Below, piece after piece: positions 18,313-50,962 of a DNA stretch of 64,000 nt. Within the stretch, counting starts at the first letter, position 1; every line of letters starts with the position of its first letter. The stretch comes from Arcobacter nitrofigilis DSM 7299 (GTDB lineage Bacteria > Campylobacterota > Campylobacteria > Campylobacterales > Arcobacteraceae). The translations under genes were made by a program, and so were the position numbers. The notes beneath the pieces are model-generated. The model saw only the letters and a list, made by a program, of their open reading frames with translations, was not told the origin of the DNA and did no database searches. The DNA is taken from NCBI RefSeq assembly GCF_000092245.1, contig NC_014166.1:930001-994000 (forward strand), written 5' to 3'.

Positions 18313-18348
18313 AAATATCGTATAGTATTTTTATGCTGTATGATATTT
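18313..18348 (+). other. mRNA hairpin between the TRAP genes and the dipeptidase gene
   Basis: AAATATCGTATAG and CTGTATGATATTT can pair as a 13-bp RNA stem with two G-U wobbles around a ten-base loop. There is no T-run, so it is more likely a processing or partial-attenuation hairpin than a full terminator. It sits just ahead of the strong AGGAGG site of the dipeptidase gene. Confidence 0.4.
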
Positions 18349-18363
18349 AATTTAGGAGGATTT

Positions 18364-19134
18364 ATGAAAGAATGTATTATAAATAAACCAATTATCAATA
18401 ATGAAAAAATATCTTGGGATACAGTCTATTCTATGCAAATAGTTGAGTGTGAAGAAGAACTTGTACCTCTTTCTCTTTCACCAGAACATATATTAGTACG
18501 TTCTGCATATTTTGAAGCTGGACTTGCAGGTTCCTTACCTGAGTGTTATGCACGTAGTAGTATAAGAGAACGCCTAATGAAAGCTGCTAATTTATTACCA
18601 AAAGACTTGCGTTTAGTTGTATTAGACGCATGGCGTAGTCATCAAGTTCAAAAAACTTTATTTGAACAGTGCCAAAGTGCTCTTAATTCAGTCTATCCAG
18701 ATATAGATGAAAAAGAGTTACATAATATGACTCAGCAGTATGTTGCTCTTCCTAGTTTTAATCCAAGAGCTCCTTCTCCTCATTCAACTGGTGGAGCAAT
18801 AGATTTAATGATTGCAACAAGAGCTGGAGTTCCATTATTTTTTGGCTCACCTTTTGATCATCCAACTGAAATTTCTGATACAAGATATTTTGAAGAAAAA
18901 TTAGAAAATAAAGAAATCCTTTCAAAAGAAGAGAGTATTGCGATGGAAAACAGAAGATTACTTTATAATATCATGACTGAAGTAGGTTTTGTTAATCTTC
19001 CATCTGAGTGGTGGCATTATGAATTTGGAACACAACGATATGCACATCAAACTGGAAAAGAACATGCAATTTATGGAGCAAAAACTCTATGCCTTAATTC
19101 TTTTGAGACATTTAAAAAAGATAAAATAAAATAG
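18364..19134 (+). CDS. ddpX: D-alanyl-D-alanine dipeptidase (VanX/DdpX family)
   Basis: A 256-residue zinc dipeptidase. Visible motifs are LDAWRSHQVQ (substrate-binding Arg), SPHSTGGAIDL with zinc-binding His and Asp, and SEWWHYEF with catalytic Glu and zinc His. The start at 18364 is chosen for the perfect AGGAGG three bases upstream of it; the earlier in-frame ATG has none. It has no signal peptide, so it cleaves D-Ala-D-Ala in the cytoplasm. Co-location with the TRAP transporter, alr and dadA suggests import of D-Ala-D-Ala-like dipeptides, cleavage, then racemisation or oxidation. Confidence 0.92.
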   Translation: MKECIINKPIINNEKISWDTVYSMQIVECEEELVPLSLSPEHILVRSAYFEAGLAGSLPECYARSSIRERLMKAANLLPKDLRLVVLDAWRSHQVQKTLFEQCQSALNSVYPDIDEKELHNMTQQYVALPSFNPRAPSPHSTGGAIDLMIATRAGVPLFFGSPFDHPTEISDTRYFEEKLENKEILSKEESIAMENRRLLYNIMTEVGFVNLPSEWWHYEFGTQRYAHQTGKEHAIYGAKTLCLNSFETFKKDKIK

Positions 19135-19136
19135 TA

Positions 19137-19394
19137 TTAATAAGTATTATTCATACTGTAATAACTATTTATTTTTTCACTTATTTCATTATCTTTTGGG
19201 AACCTTTTTTCTCTTTCTGAAAGTGCTAGTTTACTAAATAATACTTCATCATTAACTTTTACTAAAAATGTACCGCCACTATCTTTTATAAGATTTATTT
19301 TTGCTTTTGGAAAATTATTTATTAATTCCTCTTCTAACCTAGAAGCTTGTGGTAAATAATTTCACATACCGCAATAATATATTTCTATATTCAT
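19137..19394 (-). CDS. SelW/Rdx-family selenoprotein (CxxU), UGA-containing
   Basis: Read through one in-frame TGA (19364-19362), this minus-strand gene encodes 85 residues starting MNIEIYYCGMUNYLPQASRL: a Cys-Gly-Met-Sec redox motif at residues 8-11, the CxxU arrangement of the SelW/SelT/SelH (Rdx) family. AAGGA lies seven bases before the ATG. Sixteen bases after the TGA is a 6-bp stem (CTTCTA/TAGAAG) with loop GGT, in the position and with the G-U loop expected of a bacterial SECIS. The window also encodes SelA, SelB, SelD and tRNA-Sec, so decoding is possible. The likely role is thioredoxin-fold redox chemistry. It lies convergent to the dipeptidase gene. Confidence 0.87.
19331..19345 (-). 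promoter_or_regulatory. Candidate bacterial SECIS of the SelW-like gene
   Basis: A perfect 6-bp stem with a GGT apical loop, 16 bases downstream of the Sec TGA on the minus strand. A GU in the loop of a short apical hairpin is what SelB recognises in known bacterial SECIS elements. Confidence 0.6.
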
Positions 19395-19484
19395 TGTATG
19401 TCCTTGAAATTTTTATTTATATAAATTTATCAAAATATAAGAAGAAAAAGCTTAAAGTCTAAATCTAATTATAAAAGGAAATCT

Positions 19485-20033
19485 ATGGCAAATATTACTG
19501 ATAAACTTAATAAAACTGATATTGAATTTATAGAAAATCAAAAGATGTTTTTTGTCTCTACTTCACCAAAAGATGGAAAAATAAATCTTTCACCCAAAGG
19601 CTTAGATGATACTTTTAAAATAATAGATGAAAATAAAATCTTATGGCTAAACTACTTTGGAAGTGGTAATGAAACAGCTGCTCACTTACTAGAAGATAAT
19701 AGAATGACTATTATGTTTTGTGCTTTTGAGGGTGAACCAAATATTCTAAGACTTTATTGTAAAGCAAAAGTAATACATAAAAGAGATACTTTATGGGAAG
19801 AGTATATCTCTCATTTTTCTACGAAAAGAGCAGCAAGACAGGTTTTTGATGTGACTATAGAAAATGTAAATAACTCATGTGGTATGGGTGTTCCTTTATA
19901 TGACTTTATAGGCCAAAGGGAAGATTTACCAGTTTTATATAATAAAATGAGTGAAGAGGAACATATCGCTTATATGAAAAAGAAAAATGTGCTTAGTTTT
20001 GATGGGAAGGAAACTAAGTTATTTGAGGATTAA
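19485..20033 (+). CDS. Pyridoxamine 5'-phosphate oxidase-related FMN-binding protein
   Basis: A 182-residue protein of the PNPOx-like split-barrel family: FFVSTSPKDGKINLSPKG near the N-terminus and NYFGSGNETAAHLLEDNRMTI follow the usual flavin-binding pattern. It is too divergent and too short to be the PdxH synthase itself. It is divergent from the selenoprotein gene and followed by the inverted-repeat element, whose left hairpin could end its transcript. Confidence 0.8.
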   Translation: MANITDKLNKTDIEFIENQKMFFVSTSPKDGKINLSPKGLDDTFKIIDENKILWLNYFGSGNETAAHLLEDNRMTIMFCAFEGEPNILRLYCKAKVIHKRDTLWEEYISHFSTKRAARQVFDVTIENVNNSCGMGVPLYDFIGQREDLPVLYNKMSEEEHIAYMKKKNVLSFDGKETKLFED

Positions 20034-20650: not shown

Positions 20651-21655
20651 ATGCGAGAATTAGATTTAGAAGAGTTTGTAGATGAGATATATGAAGATTC
20701 TGAAAAGAATCCTGATAGTAAATATATATTCTTTCTTGGTGCAGGATGTTCGGTTAGTTCTGGTATAAAACTGGCAAGTGAATTAGCGAAAGAATGGTAT
20801 GAAGAATTAAAAAAGCAAAAAAGTAAGTTCGATAAGTTTAATAAAAAATATAAAATAAAGAAAAAAGATTATGGTGAATATTATTTTGAGATATTTGAAA
20901 CTTTATTTCCAACTCCTTTAGCACAGCAAAAAGAGATACAAAGAATTACAGAATGTATTACCCCATGTCTTGGATATTATATCTTGACAGAACTTATGCA
21001 AAAAGCTCAATTTAATACAGTCATTACAACAAATTTTGATAATTTAATTCAAGATGCGCTAATTTATAGTGGAAATAAAAGAGCCCTTGTAATTACTCAT
21101 CAAGATTTGGCAAAGTTTATTGAGAGAAATAATACTCCATTAATAACTAAAATACATGGTGATGCACATATGCATCCATTTAATAATTCATCAGATACAA
21201 AAGAAATACCAGAGGATTTAAAGATTGCAATTCAGGGCTTATTTATTAATGCAAAGGTAATTTTTATTGGGTATAAAGGAAACGATGAAAGTATAGCTAA
21301 TTTATTAGACGGATGTAAAAGAATTGACCAAGTTTATTGGTTTGGTTCAAGTCAACCGATAACTTCAAAATTAAAAAATTGGTGGGAAACTCTTAGTTCA
21401 AAGGCATATATTAAAGAGCGCGAGTTTGATAAAATTATGAGTCTAATAAAAGATAAATTTGATTTAGATAAACCAGATTTCAAAAAAAGATTTGAAGAAT
21501 TAGAAAGCAGTTATAGTAAGGCAGAGGAAACAGAAACTGAAACTCTTGAAAATATTAAAGTTAAATCATTTATAGATTATTTTATTTTAGGAAATACATA
21601 TTTTGAAAAATATGAGTATAAAAAAGCAATAAATTCATATAAAAAAAGCATCTGA
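20651..21655 (+). CDS. SIR2-domain part of an interrupted SIR2-TPR protein
   Basis: 334 residues up to a frameshift. The SIR2_2-type NAD-binding domain shows FFLGAGCSVSSGI (about residues 26-38), TTNFDN (about 126-131) and KIHGDAH (about 168-174). From residue about 310 the TPR region begins. In the first repeat a run of seven A (21641-21647) replaces the six A of other repeats, shifting the frame to the stop at 21655. A compensating T loss near 21680 and a G loss near 21818 follow. SIR2-TPR proteins are typical NAD-consuming anti-phage effectors. Whether the breaks are real, phase-variable or sequencing errors cannot be told here. Confidence 0.75.
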   Translation: MRELDLEEFVDEIYEDSEKNPDSKYIFFLGAGCSVSSGIKLASELAKEWYEELKKQKSKFDKFNKKYKIKKKDYGEYYFEIFETLFPTPLAQQKEIQRITECITPCLGYYILTELMQKAQFNTVITTNFDNLIQDALIYSGNKRALVITHQDLAKFIERNNTPLITKIHGDAHMHPFNNSSDTKEIPEDLKIAIQGLFINAKVIFIGYKGNDESIANLLDGCKRIDQVYWFGSSQPITSKLKNWWETLSSKAYIKEREFDKIMSLIKDKFDLDKPDFKKRFEELESSYSKAEETETETLENIKVKSFIDYFILGNTYFEKYEYKKAINSYKKSI

Positions 21656-22634
21656 ATTAAATCCAAAAAAAGATTCTATTTTAATAATTGGGGAAGTGCA
21701 TTATCTAATTTAGCAAAATCAAAAAATGATGATGATAAGTTATATGAAGAGGTATTTGAAAAATATAAAAAAGCATCTGAATTAAATCCAAAAAAAGATT
21801 CTATTTTTAATAATTGGGAAGTGCATTATACAATTTAGCAAAATCAAAAAATGATGAAAAGTTATATAAAGAGGCATTTGAAAAATATAAAAAAGCATCT
21901 GAATTAAATCCAAAAGATGATTCTATTTTTAATAATTGGGGAAGTGCATTATACAATTTAGCAAAATCAAAAAATGATGAAAAGTTATATGAAGAGGCAT
22001 TTGAGAAATATAAAAAAGCATCTGAATTAAATCCAAAAGATGATTCTATTTTTTATAATTGGGGGACTGCATTATCTAATTTAGCAGAATCAAAAAATGA
22101 TGAAAAGTTATATAAAGAGGCATTTGAAAAATATAAAAAAGCATCTGAATTAAATCCAAAAGATGATTCTATTTTTTATAATTGGGGAAATACATTATCT
22201 AATTTAGCAGAATCAAAAAATGATGAAAAGTTATATGAAGAGGCATTTGAGAAATATAAAAAAGCATCTGAATTAAATCCAAAAGATGATTCTATTTTTT
22301 ATAATTGGGGGACTGCATTATCTAATTTAGCAGAATCAAAAAATGATGAAAAGTTATATAAAGAGGTATTTGAGAAATATAAAAAAGCATCTGAATTAAA
22401 TCCAAAAAAAGATTCTATTTTTAATAATTGGGGAAGTGCATTATACAATTTAGCAAAATTAAAAAATGATGATAAGTTATATAAAGAGGCATTTGAGAAA
22501 TATAAAAAAGCATCTGAATTAAATCCAAAAGATGATTCTATTTTTTATAATTGGGGGACTGCATTATCTAATTTAGCAAAATTAAAAAATGATGATAAGT
22601 TATATGAAGAAGCATATGAGAAATTACAAAAAGC
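21648..22634 (+). repeat. Tandem 123-bp repeats encoding 41-residue TPR-like units
   Basis: Eight units start at 21648, 21773, 21895, 22018, 22141, 22264, 22387 and 22510, each opening with GCATCTGAATTAAATCC. The unit is 123 bases (41 residues); the first is longer by one codon (extra GAT), and the first two carry the single-base changes that break the frame. Units are nearly identical at the DNA level, which shows recent expansion or ongoing homogenisation. Confidence 0.92.
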
Positions 22635-22833
22635 AGTTGATTTAGGTGGAGATTCATATAATTTATCTTGTTATTATTCTCTTAGAGGTATAAAATCTAA
22701 AGCTTTAGAATTATTAGAAAAAAATCTAATTGATAAAGCTATAAGTGTAGAAGAGATTGAGAAAGATGAAGATTGGGATAATTTTAAAGATGACAGTGAT
22801 TTTATAGAACTATTAAATAAATACAAAAAATAA
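21814..22833 (+). CDS. TPR-repeat part of the interrupted SIR2-TPR protein
   Basis: 339 residues forming the C-terminal continuation of the SIR2 gene after the homopolymer frameshifts; its apparent ATG is simply the first one in this frame. It consists of 41-residue TPR-like units with core pattern NWG-ALxNLA and EAFEKYKKASELNPKDDSIF, then an acidic C-terminal segment of about 60 residues. TPR arrays in such proteins usually sense a phage or cell component and control the SIR2 effector domain. Alone it has no ribosome site, so it is probably expressed only as part of the full-length protein of about 725 residues. Confidence 0.7.
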   Translation: MGSALYNLAKSKNDEKLYKEAFEKYKKASELNPKDDSIFNNWGSALYNLAKSKNDEKLYEEAFEKYKKASELNPKDDSIFYNWGTALSNLAESKNDEKLYKEAFEKYKKASELNPKDDSIFYNWGNTLSNLAESKNDEKLYEEAFEKYKKASELNPKDDSIFYNWGTALSNLAESKNDEKLYKEVFEKYKKASELNPKKDSIFNNWGSALYNLAKLKNDDKLYKEAFEKYKKASELNPKDDSIFYNWGTALSNLAKLKNDDKLYEEAYEKLQKAVDLGGDSYNLSCYYSLRGIKSKALELLEKNLIDKAISVEEIEKDEDWDNFKDDSDFIELLNKYKK

Positions 22834-27133: not shown

Positions 27134-29935
27134 CTATGCTCTTTCAATTCTTACAAGAGAACATTTAGTCTCAGGACAAGAAGTTTGTTGGTCAAAACCA
27201 TAACTTGTAACTTGGTTAGAACTTTCCCCACTTCCATAAGGAGCAGTTTTATCAGGATATCTTCCTAAAAGACTTTCACCTTGCCAAACACCTGAGAAGT
27301 TTTGTGGTAAGAATACTGATTTTTCATCAACTCTATGAGAGTATTTACATTTTATTCTTATTTTTCCTTCACCAGTCCCATAAACCCACATCATTTCACC
27401 ATCTTTAATACCAAGTTTTCCTGCAAGATTTGGATGAAGCTCACCATACATTTCAGGAGCTAATTCAGATAGATATTTTGATGCTCTTGTTTCTGTTCCT
27501 GAACCCATGTGTTCAACAATTCTTCCTGAAACAATATTGATTGGATAATTTTTTACCCAAACTTGTGCATCTTGCTCAGTTTTATATCTAACATTAGTTC
27601 TAAAGTGATTTGGGATATCTTTAACAGCTGGATATCTTTTCACTAAATCAGGTCTAAATGAGTGTAATGGTTCTCTATGTTTTGGAATATGATCAATAAA
27701 GTTCCAAACAATAGCTCTAGCTCTTGCATTTCCATAAGGTGCAAGTCCAGCAGCGATTGCATATTTATTTAAAATACCACTATCATCAGTTTTCCAGTTT
27801 TTACCTTCAACAGCTTTTTTCTCAGCATCAGTTAATGTAACCCCTGCTAATTCTTCGATGTTTTTAGCTGTGATTTCAGCATATCCACCATTGATTCTAC
27901 TTCCTTTAGGTGCTGAGCCTTCAGCTGATAATAAATTAACACCATCTCTTTCTAAACCAAATCTATTTCTAAATCCCATACCACCTTGAGCAACAGGAAT
28001 ATTAATGTTGTATAAAACTGGGCTTCCTGGATGAGTTTCTGTCCAACAAGGCCAAGGTAATCCATAATATTCTTTCTCAACTGGTCCTCTTCCTTTTAAT
28101 GAAGTAGATTCAAATAAGTGCCAATTTTCAGTATGTTTTTTAATTCTAGCTGCAGTTCGTCCTTGCATACCAATAGTTTTTAAACTTCTAGCAATTTCAT
28201 CTGTAGCATCTTCTGGCCATTTAAATTTATCGCCTTTACCCATACCAGCAATATATTGATCATAAAATCCTAATCTTTTTGCAAAGTCAAATAAGATATC
28301 TTGATCTTCTCTTGCTTCATATAGAGGTTCGATTACTTTAGTTCTCCATTGTGCACTTCTTGCAGTGTTTACAACTGTTCCCTCTGTTTCAACTTGTGTA
28401 GCAGCAGGTAATAAGAATAAATTATCATTTCTTGTTGTAATAACGGCGGCATCATTTACAAATGGATCTATAAATACAACCATTTCTAATTTATCTAATG
28501 CTTCTTTTACTTTATGTGTTTGAGTAATAGTAGAAATACCATTACCAATACAAACTAAAGCTTTAATCGGAGTATCAGCATTATTTTTTTGATTTTCTTT
28601 ATCTAAAACACCATGAATCCAAAGCCCAAGACTAAACCCTTTTGCTTCCATCATCTCTTTAGTTTTAAATCTTCCTTTTAGCCATTCATAATCAACATTC
28701 CATTGTTTTGCGAAATATTTCCAAGAACCTTCACTTAGTCCATAATATCCTGGAAGTGTATCAGCCAAACATCCTAAGTCTGTTGAACCTTGAACATTAT
28801 CATGACCTCTTAAAATGTTACATCCACCACCTGGTTTACCTAAGTTACCAAGAGATAATTGCATAATTGACCCAAGTCTTGTATTTGAAGAACCGATTGT
28901 ATGTTGTGTCCAACCTTGATTCCAAATCAAACATCCAGGATCAGCTGTTGCAAATGCAGTTGCAGCTTGAATAAGAAGTTCTTTAGGACATCCCGTTATA
29001 TCTTCAACGTGTTCAGGAGTATACTCTTCACACTCTTTGAAAATATCGTCCATTCCATAAACTCTGTCAGCAATAAATGATTTATCGTACCATTTATTCT
29101 CACGAATTAATCTAATAATTCCATACAAAAATGCGATATCTGTACCTGTTCTAATTCGACAGTAAAGATCACTTTTTGCAGCAGTTTTTGTAAATCTAGG
29201 ATCTACAACAATGATTTTTGCCCCATTTAGCTGTTTAGCTTTTAATATATGCTGCATAGCAATAGGATGGTTAGAAGCAGGATTTGCTCCAAAAATAATA
29301 ATAGCTTTCGAGTTTTGCATATCACCTATATGATTTGTCATAGCTCCGTATCCCCACGTATTTGCCACACCGGCAACTGTTGGACTATGTCAAATTCTAG
29401 CTTGGTGATCTATATTATTTGTTCCAAACATAGCTGCAAATTTTCTAATATAGAAAGCTTGCTCATTACTTACTTTTGCTGACCCTATAAATTGAACTGA
29501 ATCTGGTCCGAATTTATCTCTAAGTGCCATTAGTTTATCACTAACTTTACTCATCGCATCATCCCAAGAAAGTCTATTCCAAGTACCATTTACTTTTTCG
29601 ATTGGATATTGCAATCTATTAGTTGTTCTTGCTTTATCAATCATATCAGCACCCTTACAGCAGTGACCCCCGTGACTTATTGGATGGTCTTGTGCAACCT
29701 CTTGTCTAACCCACACCCCGTTTTGTACTTCAGCAATAACACCACATCCAACTGAACAATGCGAACAGATAGTTTTAATAAGTTTTGAACCAGGATAAGG
29801 ATTTTTGATTTCCTCTTCACTAGCATTTCTTAATACTTTATCCGTACTTGCAAAGGCAGATGTTGCTGTTACAGCTGTAGCAAGAGAAGCCATTTTTAGA
29901 AAACTTCTTCTTCCAAAGCTTTTAAGCATTTGCAT
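27134..29935 (-). CDS. fdhA: Formate dehydrogenase alpha subunit, selenocysteine-containing (FDH-1)
   Basis: One gene of 933 residues read through an in-frame TGA at 29392-29390, which encodes Sec182 in the context DHQARI-U-HSPTVAGVANTWG. It looks like two genes only if TGA is read as stop. Features are a twin-arginine signal (GRRSFLKMASL), the [4Fe-4S] motif CSHCSVGCG with a distal Cys, the bis-MGD molybdopterin domains, and the C-terminal MopB-binding domain. Sec ligates Mo/W in the periplasmic active site. The hairpin TTGCC-GGTGT-GGCAA, 13 bases after the TGA, fits a SECIS. The neighbours are its TAT partner and the beta subunit. Confidence 0.95.
29362..29376 (-). promoter_or_regulatory. 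Candidate SECIS of fdhA-1
   Basis: A 5-bp stem TTGCC/GGCAA with loop GGTGT, 13 bases after the Sec TGA. The paralogue at 36466-36480 has TCGCC/GGCGA with the identical loop and distance, a compensatory pair change that supports RNA structure. Confidence 0.72.
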
Positions 29936-34207: not shown

Positions 34208-37054
34208 CTAGCCCTCCGCTTTCACAATTTTACATAATCCAGCATTGAACTCTGGTATTTGAGTAATGATGTCAAATCCATAATTCGTAATAGTATTTGA
34301 ACTTTCACCTATTGCATAAGGTTTAGTTCCTTCTGGATAATTAGCACTCATATCAACACCTTGCATATGTCCTGCAAAGTTATATGGTAAAGCAATTCTA
34401 TCTGGTGTAACTCTAGTACTATATTGTGCTTTTACTTTTATTTTCGTACCTTGTGGTGAATGTAACCACATCATATCACCATCTTGAATATTATGACTTT
34501 GAGCCAATTCAGGATTAATATTTGCAAACATCTCTGGTGTGATGTGAGAAAGATATTTACTAGTTCTTTCTAACATTCCTGCACCACTTAAGTTTACAAC
34601 TCTCATCGTAACTAACATAGTAGGGAACTCTTTAGACCAATCTTGAGCCATTTGCTCTGATTTAAATCTAACATCAACTCTAAAGTTGTTTTTTTGATCC
34701 TCATAAGTTGGATATTTTCTTACTAAATCCATTCTTGGTGAGTGAATTGGTTCTCTATGTAATGGAGTTTGATCAGGGAATGTCCAAACTTTTGCTCTAG
34801 CTTTTGCATTTCCATATACACAAACACCTGCTTCATCACATTTTTCTTGAATGATTCCACTAATATCTGTTTTCCAATTTGTACCAATTTTTCTTTTTTC
34901 GTCTTCTGTTAATTTGATTCCAAGAACTTCTTCTATGTTGTCTTTAGTGATTTCTGGATAACCACCTTTGATTTTTGATCCTTTAACTGAAACACTTTCA
35001 TCTGGTAGTTGTGAAACTCCATTATGTTCTAGTCCAAATCTATTTCTAAATCCCATACCACCTTTACTAACTGGTGTGTCAACATCGTATAATATTGGAC
35101 TTCCTGGATGTTTTGTTGTCCAAGACGGCCAAGGTAAACCATAATATTGACCTTTCATTTTCCCATGTCCTTCTAGACTTATAGGATCAAATAAATTCCA
35201 ATTTTCTTGGTGCTCTCTTAATCTTTTTGCAGTCCATCCACCAAGACCAATAGTTTTTACTATTCTTGCTAATTCATCTGCTGCATCATCTGGCCAAGTA
35301 AACTCTTTTTTAACTTCTTTTAATTCGCCATTTACAACTTTCATTTTCATAGCTTTAGTAAATTCATCATAAAAACCAAATTTTTTAGCAAACTCAAACA
35401 TTACATCATGGTCAGTTTTACTTTCATATAAAGGATCAACTACTTTTGTTCTCCATTGAGAAGTTCTATTTGTAGCAGTAACACTTCCTTCTGTTTCAAA
35501 CTGAGTTCCAACTGGTAAAATATAAACGTCATCTTGTTTACTTGTAATTACTGCTGCTTCATTAACAAATGGCTCAGCTATAACTAAAAGATCCAATTTA
35601 TCTAAGGCTTCTTGAACTTTAGCAGTTTGTGCCATAGAAGTAATACCATTACCTTGTACCCATAAGGCTTTAATAGGGCTTGAAGAGTATGTTTTTTCTT
35701 CTTGTAATACACCTTGCCACCATTTAGCTAATGAGAATCCTTTTTCATTCATCCATTTTGGAGAGTAAAATCTATCTTGTAACCATTTATAATCTAGTCC
35801 CCAAGCTTTAGCATAATATTTCCAAGATGCTTCACCTAAACCATAATAACCAGGTAAACTATCAGCAAGACAACACATATCAGTAGAACCTTGAACATTA
35901 TCATGTCCTCTAATAATATTACATCCACCACCTTTTTTACCCATATTCCCAAGTACTAATTGTAATATTGGAAGTATTCTAGTATTTGATGTTCCTGTAC
36001 TGTGTTGAGTAATACCTAGTGCCCAAACTACAGTCATTGGTTTAGTTTTAGCTAAAAGAGTCGCTATTTGTATAATTTGAGCTGCTGAAACACCTGTAAC
36101 ATTTGCTGTTTCTTCAGGAGTCCATTTTTTAGCTTCTTCTCTAACTTCATCCATTCCATATACTCTATTTTCTATGAAACTTTTATCTTCCCAACCATTT
36201 TTAAATATAATATGTAATAAACCATATATAAAGGCTACATCTGTACCTGTTCTAATTCTTAAATAATGATCCGCTTTTGCAGCAGATTTTGTGAAAACTG
36301 GATCTACTACAATCAGTTTTGCATTGTTTCTATCTTTTGCTTGTAGAAAGTGTTTAAATCCAATTGGATTTGAAACAGCTGAATTTGCTCCAATCATAAA
36401 AATAGCTTTTGAGTGTCCGACAACATCACCAAAATGATTTGTCATAGCGCCATAACCCCATGTATTCGCCACACCGGCGACAGTTGCACTATGTCAAATT
36501 CTAGCTACGTGATCGATATTATTCGTACCCCACATTGCAGCAAACTTTCTGAAATAAAAAGCTTGTTGTAAATTAAATTTTGCTGATCCTAAAAACATTG
36601 CGACATCAGGACCGCTCTCTTTTCTTAGTTTTAACATTTTTTCAGAGATTTCATTAATAGCAGTTTCCCAAGAAATTCTTTGCCATTTCCCAGCAACTTT
36701 TTTTAGTGGATATTTAACTCTTTGTTTACTTTTAACTAAATCAATTTGGTCAATACCTTTACAACAGTGACTTCCTTGACTAATAGGATGTTCTTGTGCT
36801 ACATCTTGTCTTATCCACACACCATTTTGAACTTCTGCAATTATTCCACATCCAGCAGAACACACGCTACATATTGTTTTTACTTTCTTTGAACCTGGGA
36901 AAGGATTTTTAACTTCTTCTTCTGTGGCTTCTCGTACTTTGTCATTTGAAGCAAATAATGAAGTTGCTCCAATTCCTGCACCAACAGAAGCTAGTTTTAA
37001 AAAGTTTCTTCTTCCTAATTTCAAAGATAAGTTATCGAGTATATTTTTACCCAT
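34208..37054 (-). CDS. fdhA: Formate dehydrogenase alpha subunit, selenocysteine-containing (FDH-2)
   Basis: One gene of 948 residues read through the TGA at 36496-36494, encoding Sec187 in DHVARI-U-HSATVAGVANTWG. A twin-arginine signal (LGRRNFLKLASVG) starts it, followed by CSVCSAGCG with a fourth Cys for the [4Fe-4S] cluster and the molybdopterin domains. It is about 15 residues longer than FDH-1; an insertion is visible near KMKVVNGELKEVKKEF. The SECIS-like hairpin TCGCC-GGTGT-GGCGA stands 13 bases after the TGA, as in FDH-1. Differing sequence and a separate promoter suggest different expression or partners. Confidence 0.95.
36466..36480 (-). promoter_or_regulatory. Candidate SECIS of fdhA-2
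   Basis: Stem TCGCC/GGCGA with loop GGTGT, 13 bases after the Sec TGA. Relative to fdhA-1 one base pair has changed on both sides while the loop and spacing are unchanged. Confidence 0.72.
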
Positions 37055-46594: not shown

Positions 46595-47629
46595 ATGAAC
46601 AACAGATATAAATTAACAAAATTTGTTCAAGCTGCTGGTTGAGCTGCAAAGATGGGTCCGGGTGATCTTAAACAGTCTCTTTGTAATCTTAGACCGACAG
46701 ATGAAAAAGTTTTAGTAAGTTTTGAAAATAGTGAAGATGCTTGTGTTTATCAAATAAGTGAAGATAATGCTTTAGTTCAAACACTTGACTTTATTACTCC
46801 AGTTGTTGATGATCCTTATATTTATGGGAAAATAGCTGCTGCAAATTCACTTAGTGATATTTTTGCTATGGGTGCTGAAGTAAAAACAGCTATGAATATA
46901 GTTGGTTTTGATGCAAAAAACCATGGAAGAGAAGTATTAGCTGAAATTTTAAATGGTGGAAATGAGAAAATAAAAGAGTGTGGTGGAGTTTTGATGGGGG
47001 GACATACTATTGAAAGCCCTGAAATGTATTATGGATTATCAGTAACTGGTATGATTCATCCAAATAACATATATAGAAATAACACAGCCAAAATAGGGCA
47101 TGTATTGGTTCTTACCAAACCAATAGGAATGGGTATTTTAACTACAGCTATTAAAAGAGATTTATTAAGTGATGAAACAACAATGGAAGCAATAAAAATA
47201 ATGGAGACATTAAATTATTTACCATCAAAAATATTAAGACAATATGATGTGAGCTCTTGTACAGATATTACTGGATTTGGACTTATTGGACATGCCTTTG
47301 AATCAACAAATCCTACGACTACATTTGCAATACATTGTGGTGAAGTTCCAGTTATGCAAGATGCTTATGATTTAGCACAGCAAGGTGTAGTTCCAGGTGG
47401 AACAAAAAGAAATCTAAAATATCTAGAAGATAAGATGACTGTAATGTGTGCAGATAGTGCTTGTAAACTTATGTATTGTGATGCTCAAACATCAGGTGGC
47501 TTATTGGTTGCTATGGATAAAGATGATGCAAAAGAGTATATAAAAAAAGTAGAAGAGTTAACTTATGGTTATGCAAAAATTATAGGGGAAGTTATTCCAA
47601 GGGGAGTCACACCAATTATGATTTATTAA
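46595..47629 (+). CDS. selD: Selenide, water dikinase, itself a selenoprotein
   Basis: 344 residues from the ATG at 46595 (AAGGGA upstream), reading the TGA at 46640-46642 as Sec16 in KFVQAAGUAAKMGPGDL. Starting at the later ATG 46652 would remove the catalytic Sec/Cys and the lysine-glycine motif, so that call is wrong. Downstream are the ATP-binding MGPGDL, VVDDPYIYGKIAAANSLSDIFAMGA and the C-terminal AIRS domain. SelD makes selenophosphate from selenide and ATP. A short hairpin AAGAT/ATCTT follows the TGA, a weak SECIS candidate. First gene of selD-selA-selB. Confidence 0.95.
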
Positions 47630-47630
47630 T

Positions 47631-47730
47631 TGGCGAGAAGATGAAGGAATCGAACCTCCCACGGCGTATTACACATAAACCGTCAATCAGGGTTGAAGCC
47701 TGTGGTGCCCACCAGGTACACTTATCTCCC
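47631..47730 (-). tRNA. selC: tRNA-Sec (anticodon UCA)
   Basis: A 100-base minus-strand tRNA with encoded CCA and G discriminator. Visible are anticodon TCA in loop CTTCAAC closed by CAGG/CCTG, a long variable arm (ACGG/CCGT stem), and a T arm GGAGG-TTCGATT-CCTTC. The acceptor ATCTTCTC pairs with the 5' GGGAGAT only if one T is bulged. Length and long arm match bacterial tRNA-Sec. It lies antisense between selD and selA. A TTGACC -35-like element is on the minus strand near 47781, and a GTAAGA/TCTTAC hairpin just upstream of the 5' end. Confidence 0.9.
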
Positions 47731-47786: not shown

Positions 47787-49133
47787 ATGAGTTTACTCAA
47801 GTCTATTCCAAAAATTGATAAATTTGTATCAAAGAGTTGCTTTGATGGATATTCAATTAACTTAATTACTAAAATATCACAAGTAGTAATTGAGAACTTG
47901 AGAATTGAAATACTTCAAAATAATATTAATGAAATAAATGAAGACAAATTAGTAGAAGAAGTTCTTGAAACATATAAAGAGTTAGTAGCTCCTTCTTTAC
48001 AAAAAGTTATAAATGCTACAGGAATAATAGTACATACAAATTTAGGTAGAAGTTTATTGAGTAAACAAAGTTTAGAAAAGGCTATAGATATAGCTACTTC
48101 ATATAATAATCTAGAATATGACTTAAAAAAAGGTCAAAGAGGTGAGAGATATGCTCACATAGTAAAAACACTACAAGCTTTGACTGGATGTGAAGATGCA
48201 ATCGTTGTAAATAATAATGCAAGTGCAGTTTTTCTTATCATGAATACCTTTGCAAAAAATAAAGAAGTAGTAGTAAGTAGAGGCGAACTTGTAGAAATAG
48301 GTGGAAGCTTTAGAGTTCCAGAAGTTATGGCTCAAAGTGGGGCAATTTTAAAAGAGATAGGTACTACAAATAAAACTCACCTAAGGGATTATGAAAACGC
48401 TATCAATGAAAATACTTCTATGCTCATGAAAGTACATAAATCAAACTATACTATTGAAGGTTTTGCTAGTGATGTTACTTTTGAAGATATAGTAAAAGTA
48501 GCTTCACAAAATGAGGTTATAGATTATTATGACATGGGAAGTGGACATATGATTGACTTGCCTTTTAATCTATCAAGTGCTGAACCCTCTATTCTAAAAA
48601 TCATGGAATACAATCCTAGCCTTCTAAGCTTCTCAGGTGATAAACTTTTAGGAAGTGTACAAGCAGGTATAATCATAGGTAAAAAAGAGCTAATAGCCAA
48701 AATCAAAAAGAATCAATTATTAAGAATGCTAAGGGTTGATAAAATCACCTTGTCAATACTTGAAGATACACTAAATTCATATTTAACAAATGATTTAAAA
48801 AATATTCCTACACTAAATATGTTATATACAAAAATAGAAGTTTTACAAAAAAGAGCAAATAAACTAAAAACACTAATAGATACTATTTGTAAATGTGAAG
48901 TAATAAAAAATCAAACACTTATAGGTGGAGGAACAACTCCAAATAAAAAGATACCAACTATTGCTTTAACATTAGAGTATAAAGATTTTAAACCAAATAA
49001 AATTGAAGAACTTTTAAGAAGAAATAATCTAATCACTAGAATAGAAAATGAAAAAGTATTGTTAGATTTTAGGACTATTCAAGAAGATGAAATAGAAAAA
49101 ATAGAAAGTATAATAAAAAGGGTATTTAATTAA
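47787..49133 (+). CDS. selA: L-seryl-tRNA(Sec) selenium transferase
   Basis: A 448-residue fold-I PLP enzyme that converts Ser-tRNA-Sec to Sec-tRNA-Sec with selenophosphate. Family motifs are INATGIIVHTNLGRSLLS (about residues 78-95), VVNNNASAVFLIM, and the PLP lysine in SFSGDKLLGSVQAG (about 282-295). An AAAGGG site precedes the start. It overlaps selB by one base. Confidence 0.97.
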   Translation: MSLLKSIPKIDKFVSKSCFDGYSINLITKISQVVIENLRIEILQNNINEINEDKLVEEVLETYKELVAPSLQKVINATGIIVHTNLGRSLLSKQSLEKAIDIATSYNNLEYDLKKGQRGERYAHIVKTLQALTGCEDAIVVNNNASAVFLIMNTFAKNKEVVVSRGELVEIGGSFRVPEVMAQSGAILKEIGTTNKTHLRDYENAINENTSMLMKVHKSNYTIEGFASDVTFEDIVKVASQNEVIDYYDMGSGHMIDLPFNLSSAEPSILKIMEYNPSLLSFSGDKLLGSVQAGIIIGKKELIAKIKKNQLLRMLRVDKITLSILEDTLNSYLTNDLKNIPTLNMLYTKIEVLQKRANKLKTLIDTICKCEVIKNQTLIGGGTTPNKKIPTIALTLEYKDFKPNKIEELLRRNNLITRIENEKVLLDFRTIQEDEIEKIESIIKRVFN

Positions 49134-50962
49134 TGTCTAATATCATTATAGGAACAGCAGGACACATAGATCACGGTAAAACAGCTTTAATAAAAGCTTT
49201 AAATGGTTTTGAAGGTGATGATACAAATGAAGAGAAACAAAGGGGAATCACTATTGATTTATCCTTTTCAAATCTAACACGTGGACAACAAAACATAGCC
49301 TTTATAGATGTCCCAGGACATGAAAAGTTAGTTAAAAACATGATTGCTGGGGCTTTTGGATTTGACTATGTTATGCTAATAGTAAGTGCTGCTGAAGGGA
49401 TAAAACCTCAAACAGTTGAACACATAGAAATTATAAACTTACTAGGGCTTAAGGAGTTAATCGTAGTCCTTACAAAAAAAGATTTAGTAAGTTCTGAAGA
49501 GTTAGCTTTAAAAAAAGAACAAATTTTGATGTTTTTGGGAACTTTTGATTTTGAGATAAAATTTGTAAGTGAAGTTTCTATATATGATGAAAGCTCAATT
49601 GAAAAACTAAAAAATCAACTCTTTACTATAAATAATAGTACGAAACAAGAAGAGAACTTTTTTAGATTTTATGTGGATAGAGTATTTTCACCTAAAGGTA
49701 TTGGTACAGTTGTAACAGGAACGGTTTTAGGGAAAAAAGTTGAATTAAATGAAAAAGTGTTTATCTGTGAAACTCAAAAAGAGACAAAACTTAAAAATAT
49801 CCAAGTACACAATCAAAATGTCCTAGAAGCAAATATCTCAAACAGGGCAGCTTTAAATTTACAAAATATAGATGTAAAAAGTATAACTAGAGGTGATTTG
49901 ATTACTAAAAGAGGATATGTAAGAGGATTTGATGGAGTTGATATCTCTTTTTCTTGCCTAAAAGATAAAAAACTTATGCACAATAAATTATATTCTCTTT
50001 TTATAGGTGCAAAAAGAATAGAAGTAAAAGCTTTACTTTTTGACACAATAGACTCACTAGAAGAGGGCTTTGCTACACTAAAATCAACAGAAAAGTTATA
50101 TACAGTTTTTGGTGAGAAAATAATTTTAAGAAATGGCAATGAAACAGTATGTGGGGGAAAAGTCTTAAATCCAGTAATTGACCCAATGAAGAAGAATCAA
50201 AAAAGAAAGCTTTTAGAGGCTTTAGATAAAAATGATTTTATAAATGCCTATTATGAACTTTTAAGTGCTCATAGAAAAGGTCTTGGAATAATCTCTTCAA
50301 CTCAAAGATTTGCCCTAAGTCATGAAGAGGCTTTAGAGTTTGCAAAAAAACTTGATGAGGTATTTGTGGATGAGAAGGATTTAATTATTTATCCAAACTC
50401 TACCAAAGATGAGTTAAAGGATTATATTAAAAACATATATAAAAAGAATGCTTACGCTATGCTTTCTAATGCTTCTATTTCATTAAGAGTGAAATGGGCA
50501 AGTGCTTTATTTATTGATTCTGTTTTATATGAGCTAGAAGAAGAGGACTTTTTAATAAAAGAGGGTAGTTTATATAAAAATGCTCATATTAAAGAAGACT
50601 TTTCAAAAGATTTAGAAGAGATAGTTTTAAATAGATTAAAAGAAGAAGATATAGCTCCAACAGCTCCTTATAATATCTATGATGATTTGGATATAGATAG
50701 AAAACTAGGTGATGATATTTTGAAATCTCTAACTTCTAAAAAACAAGTAATAAGAATACAACACAATCTTTTCATACATTTTGAAAGTTTGAACAATATT
50801 GTAAAAGCTATGAAGAGTATCATAAAATCAGATGGTTACATAGAAATCTCAAATTTTAAAGATAGATTTGAACTTAGTAGAAAATATTTAATTGCATATT
50901 TGGATTATCTTGATAATTATTCAGAGATAAAAAAAATAGATACAAAAAGAGTTTTTGCATAA
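49133..50962 (+). CDS. selB: Selenocysteine-specific elongation factor
   Basis: 609 residues. GTPase motifs GTAGHIDHGKTAL at the N-terminus, DVPGHE and TKKD; EF-Tu-like domains 2-3 follow; the C-terminal part from about residue 380 has the winged-helix repeats that bind the SECIS hairpin (ending SRKYLIAYLDYLDNYSEIKK). SelB brings Sec-tRNA to UGA codons that carry a SECIS. It abuts the methyltransferase gene. Confidence 0.97.
   Translation: MSNIIIGTAGHIDHGKTALIKALNGFEGDDTNEEKQRGITIDLSFSNLTRGQQNIAFIDVPGHEKLVKNMIAGAFGFDYVMLIVSAAEGIKPQTVEHIEIINLLGLKELIVVLTKKDLVSSEELALKKEQILMFLGTFDFEIKFVSEVSIYDESSIEKLKNQLFTINNSTKQEENFFRFYVDRVFSPKGIGTVVTGTVLGKKVELNEKVFICETQKETKLKNIQVHNQNVLEANISNRAALNLQNIDVKSITRGDLITKRGYVRGFDGVDISFSCLKDKKLMHNKLYSLFIGAKRIEVKALLFDTIDSLEEGFATLKSTEKLYTVFGEKIILRNGNETVCGGKVLNPVIDPMKKNQKRKLLEALDKNDFINAYYELLSAHRKGLGIISSTQRFALSHEEALEFAKKLDEVFVDEKDLIIYPNSTKDELKDYIKNIYKKNAYAMLSNASISLRVKWASALFIDSVLYELEEEDFLIKEGSLYKNAHIKEDFSKDLEEIVLNRLKEEDIAPTAPYNIYDDLDIDRKLGDDILKSLTSKKQVIRIQHNLFIHFESLNNIVKAMKSIIKSDGYIEISNFKDRFELSRKYLIAYLDYLDNYSEIKKIDTKRVFA

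Follow-up and report, generated by a model that had tools for sequence, protein, structure and literature searches.

A UGA-containing selW gene between a dipeptidase gene and an FMN-binding gene in Arcobacter nitrofigilis DSM 7299

Does the gap between a peptidase M15-type dipeptidase gene (18340-19134, plus strand) and an FMN-binding PNPOx-type gene (19485-20033, plus strand) hold a selenoprotein gene that is hidden by its own UGA codon? The gap lies in the 64,000-nucleotide stretch of Arcobacter nitrofigilis DSM 7299 that we analysed (the window), and all positions are counted from its first letter. A sequence-only reading had placed an 85-residue CxxU protein with a ribosome site on the minus strand here, and every part of that gene can be located. 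The 85-codon frame (19137..19394, minus strand) opens with ATG (19394-19392), carries one in-frame UGA (19362..19364) and closes with TAA (19139-19137), and the ribosome-binding site AAGGA (19401..19405) sits 6 nt before the ATG, as AAGGA-type sites do in most relatives. The predicted product begins MNIEIYYCGMUNYLPQASRLEEEL, the UGA, near-invariant in relatives, being the second active residue (U11) of the motif C8-G-M-U11. The 3' end of the gene adjoins the stop of the convergent dipeptidase gene, and its start is 90 bp from the divergent FMN gene; a promoter scan found sites no more frequent than in shuffles. Frame, profile matches and relatives confirm a real gene, an ordinary SelW of an already known kind. 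It is almost certainly a stand-alone bacterial selW of the Rdx (SelT/SelW/SelH) family that would use SelB and a downstream hairpin to place selenocysteine (Sec) at the UGA of a CxxU redox protein.

With the UGA read as Cys, the product passes the curated cut-offs for Rdx / SelT-SelW-SelH membership along the whole domain: Pfam Rdx (PF10262; E 1.8e-18, 66.9 bits vs a cut-off of 22.6), TIGR02174 CXXU_selWTH (E 1.5e-14, 54 bits vs 34.2) and, marginally, NCBIfam NF041051 'SelTWH_Campy (seleno)protein' (E 1.7e-25, 89.1 bits vs 88). In a genome search with the stop read through, NF041051 scores 80.7 bits, which is below its cut-off, so annotation by this model is marginal for the gene. The earlier statement that standard annotation must miss it was over-stated, since NCBI has this dedicated model, although the score of our gene is narrow (89.1 vs 88). 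No other Rdx gene occurs in the genome. An AlphaFold2 model made with 13 sequences (pLDDT 87.4) has the order beta-alpha-beta-beta-beta-alpha and puts C8-G-M-U11, the CxxC/CxxU motif by which membership is judged, between predicted strand E2-8 and helix H14-27. Its best Foldseek matches in the PDB are all SelW-related (E about 4e-6 to 8e-5, TM about 0.78), followed by MIEN1 and mouse SelW. Profile and predicted structure alike support the SelW-like thioredoxin-fold reading. The Rdx Cys proteins of solved structure 2fa8, 3dex, 2p0g and 2obk share the predicted fold (TM 0.76-0.80) and the position of the redox motif, but in the three that were aligned (3dex, 2p0g and 2fa8) Cys stands where our gene has a predicted Sec as the second active residue. 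Vertebrate selenoprotein W (2npb) likewise has CxxU in a thioredoxin-like fold and belongs to the same Pfam family, although its sequence similarity is weak (E 0.65).

Orthologues with CxxU were sought in Arcobacteraceae and found in 16 of 104 genomes, in 17 copies, each of which has exactly one TGA and no other stop. Across the phylum, 116 of 397 Campylobacterota genomes have a match (115 over the cut-off), with one TGA in nearly all copies. Outside it, copies with an aligned UGA occur in three metagenome bins, whose labels are Deltaproteobacteria, Gemmatimonadetes and Zixiibacteriota. After the UGA, dN is below dS in every comparison (e.g., dS 0.57 and dN 0.225 against a same-genus relative). 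Homologues keep the in-frame UGA with conservation on both sides; a UGA conserved as UGA or Cys in this way is one criterion for a bacterial selenoprotein. Loss of the frame across the TGA, or a degraded ORF in related genomes, had been named as evidence against the gene; what we found is a TGA bridged in all 17 Arcobacteraceae copies and nearly all of those in Campylobacterota, and an intact UGA-containing selW at the same place in one same-genus genome (G033; the alignment, 881 bp at 86%, spans selW and the FMN gene beside it). In another (G032), a different gene precedes the FMN gene and there is no trace of selW, so the gene is cleanly missing and no degraded frame remains. The patchy distribution (16/104) suggests that selW is dispensable.

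Some copies depart from this pattern. One (L053) has decayed: its frame shifts ahead of the UGA, and its SECIS stem is broken. In one genome, a second selW copy (L018; G034:C96:103766-103966, 1489-1716) lies 16 kb from the normal one. It still has the UGA and a hairpin that pairs, but the resolving Cys is gone (FYSKU vs YYCGMU).

Insertion of Sec in bacteria calls for a bSECIS, a hairpin downstream of the UGA with a conserved G in its loop. The predicted hairpin does start exactly 16 nt after the TGA (CUUCU-AGGUU-AGAAG, 19331..19345, minus strand), but the sixth pair (A-U) of the 6-bp form first described is present in only half of them when relatives are compared, which leaves a 5-bp stem with a 5-nt loop as the conserved element. 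We rejected that sixth pair as a conserved feature, and likewise a lower A/U stem that was predicted to flank the hairpin in the window, because the relatives' sequences differ there. In a gap-free alignment of 38 distinct relatives, the 5-bp stem is 99.5% paired, with double (compensatory) changes at four of the five pairs (35 cells), and the sole unpaired cell belongs to the decayed copy L053. The stem has a covariation score of 0.578; shuffles give 0.184 +/- 0.025 and slid controls no more than 0.27. The second loop base is G in 38/38 sequences. Arcobacteraceae have CUUCU/AGAAG stems with AGGUU or AGGGU loops, whereas in many of the other copies the stem is CUUUC/GAAAG or CUGCA/UGCAG. By itself, the hairpin has an unremarkable folding energy (z -0.16), so the case for a SECIS element rests on covariation; an Rfam search gave no match. 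Eukaryotic SECIS elements are located in the 3' UTR, unlike the in-gene bacterial hairpin of selW.

A covariance model of the selW region picks out this one site in the window (57.4 bits; next 11.1), because the model captures coding sequence, and we therefore used a plain hairpin rule instead: five pairs, a 5-nt loop, G at loop position 2, a pyrimidine at position 5 and a spacing of 9-18 nt. Only 18 of the 2397 TGAs in the window (0.75%) satisfy it, but all four candidate Sec codons do; the rule was set after the sites had been seen, so this figure is descriptive. The spacing is 16 nt in selW, 13 in two fdhA genes and 11 in selD, whose hairpin includes two G-U pairs. One relative's copy (L115) misses the strict rule by one mismatch.

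The window was also said to encode the whole Sec machinery and to hold three other Sec users, with selW as a fourth lying outside their cluster, and both statements agree with the gene positions. On the plus strand are selD (46595..47629, with its own UGA at codon 16), selA (47787..49133) and selB (49133..50962); between the first two, the minus strand carries the tRNA-Sec gene (anticodon TCA, 47635..47730). With selA, selB, selC and selD present, the genome has the machinery expected of one that makes a bacterial selenoprotein. Two fdhA-type formate dehydrogenase genes on the minus strand have one in-frame UGA each, at codon 182 (27134..29935) and codon 187 (34208..37054), and selW is ~8 kb from the nearest fdhA and ~27 kb from selD. 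Among well-assembled genomes, SelB is over the cut-off in 13/13 of those with selW and in 66/88 of Arcobacteraceae overall (hypergeometric p 0.017, a value that ignores the relatedness of the genomes), and the three selW genomes without SelB over the cut-off are 74-86% complete. A search of this genome for the C-terminal-Sec DUF466 protein that has been reported in Campylobacterales found none.

One alternative is that the UGA is a true stop, so that the locus yields just a 10-residue peptide or a non-coding RNA. Standard ORF calling cannot cross the UGA, and the transcript of the C. jejuni orthologue was in fact first catalogued as an sRNA, CJnc60 (PMC11955535). However, the sequence beyond the UGA is conserved at the protein level with dN < dS, and a 2025 Ribo-seq and mass spectrometry study of C. 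jejuni (PMC11955535) reported ribosome coverage of SelW, a termination peak and peptides from beyond the UGA, which makes a true stop very improbable. Translation through the UGA has thus been shown in a relative.

An open frame alone cannot tell Sec from general readthrough by another amino acid (e.g., Trp), but the covarying hairpin, the alignment of the UGA with the catalytic Cys of Rdx and the co-presence of SelA/B/D and tRNA-Sec speak against that reading, and we give it hardly any credence. The same can be said of a decaying Cys-type Rdx gene in which TGC or TGT has mutated to TGA. Cys forms of Rdx do exist, and the phylum has one real decayed copy (L053, with its frameshifted N-terminus and broken stem). 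In this selW, though, frame, ribosome-binding site and hairpin are intact, close relatives all have the UGA with a covarying SECIS, the UGA is the near-invariant state in Campylobacterota, and the sole CxxC copies found are tandem paralogues without a hairpin, so decay is scarcely believable.

We therefore return to a selW gene whose UGA specifies Sec. Family, conservation of the frame, invariance of the UGA, a covarying SECIS, co-presence of the Sec machinery and a predicted fold can all be read from sequence, and from these we infer Sec insertion in this organism. In the proposed mechanism, SelB carrying Sec-tRNA would bind the hairpin located 16 nt downstream of the UGA and so place selenocysteine at position 11. 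The product would be an 85-residue thioredoxin-fold protein with CxxU where strand 1 ends and helix 1 begins. This motif would cycle between selenol/thiol and selenenylsulfide, with Sec11 attacking and Cys8 resolving, a step that follows from family and fold. The most likely function is that of a small CxxU oxidoreductase.

The hairpin overlaps codons 17-22 and so appears to leave a mark on the protein. Residues 18 and 21 co-vary (S-E, F-K, A-A, L-R, T-V), being coupled by stem pairing, and residue 19 is R or S, from codons with a middle G. Two CxxC tandem paralogues (L050 and L051) lie directly upstream of a CxxU selW and lack both the hairpin and the A-x-R motif, and these CxxC + CxxU pairs form a natural comparison for the SECIS constraint. 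In the CxxC paralogues, hairpin and Arg are both gone. It is probable that the hairpin, not protein function, dictates residues 18 and 21 (via codon pairing) and residue 19 (via the invariant loop G), and that the Cys paralogues, free of the hairpin, lost both constraints. The gene would then show cleanly how an RNA element can shape the sequence of a protein.

SelW in C. jejuni was predicted by Chaudhuri and Yeates in 2005 (PMC1242214). Zhang 2006 (PMC1794560) lists a bacterial SelW-like family, of which Sec-using organisms have very few Cys homologues, and a 2008 Global Ocean Sampling study (PMC2398784) ranked SelW-like first in abundance among the prokaryotic selenoprotein families of its samples. 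That the family exists, that Epsilonproteobacteria have it and that annotation misses it had all been published already (2005-2015). Our gene resembles the known Campylobacterota SelW (NF041051; C. jejuni SelW on CJnc60) in its length (~80 aa), the place of CxxU, the 16-nt spacing from UGA to hairpin and its stand-alone position in a genome with Sec machinery; it differs in sequence (~33-71% identity among aligned relatives) and in standing at the edge of the NF041051 score. The finding puts right this genome's gene list and contributes SelW sequences from Arcobacteraceae whose SECIS is well supported. The picture of selenium use is unchanged, because SelW in this phylum was already described and its translation shown.

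We also sought an operon partner for selW, but the immediate neighbours vary between genera, so a functional partner is not readable from context. Several genes of the wider region recur among Arcobacteraceae, and selW and selB are ~29-106 kb apart in nine genomes of this family with both on one contig (among the matches listed). The arrangement has the look of regional synteny passed on by descent, not that of an operon.

Elsewhere in the window, a plus-strand gene at 20651-22833 has a SIR2-like domain followed by TPR-like unit repeats, with weak matches to Argonaute-associated SIR2 and ThsA. The repeat copies differ in homopolymer length (near 21640, 21679 and 21815), which divides the gene into two frames; a defence gene that is broken or phase-variable, or else a sequencing error, may lie behind this.
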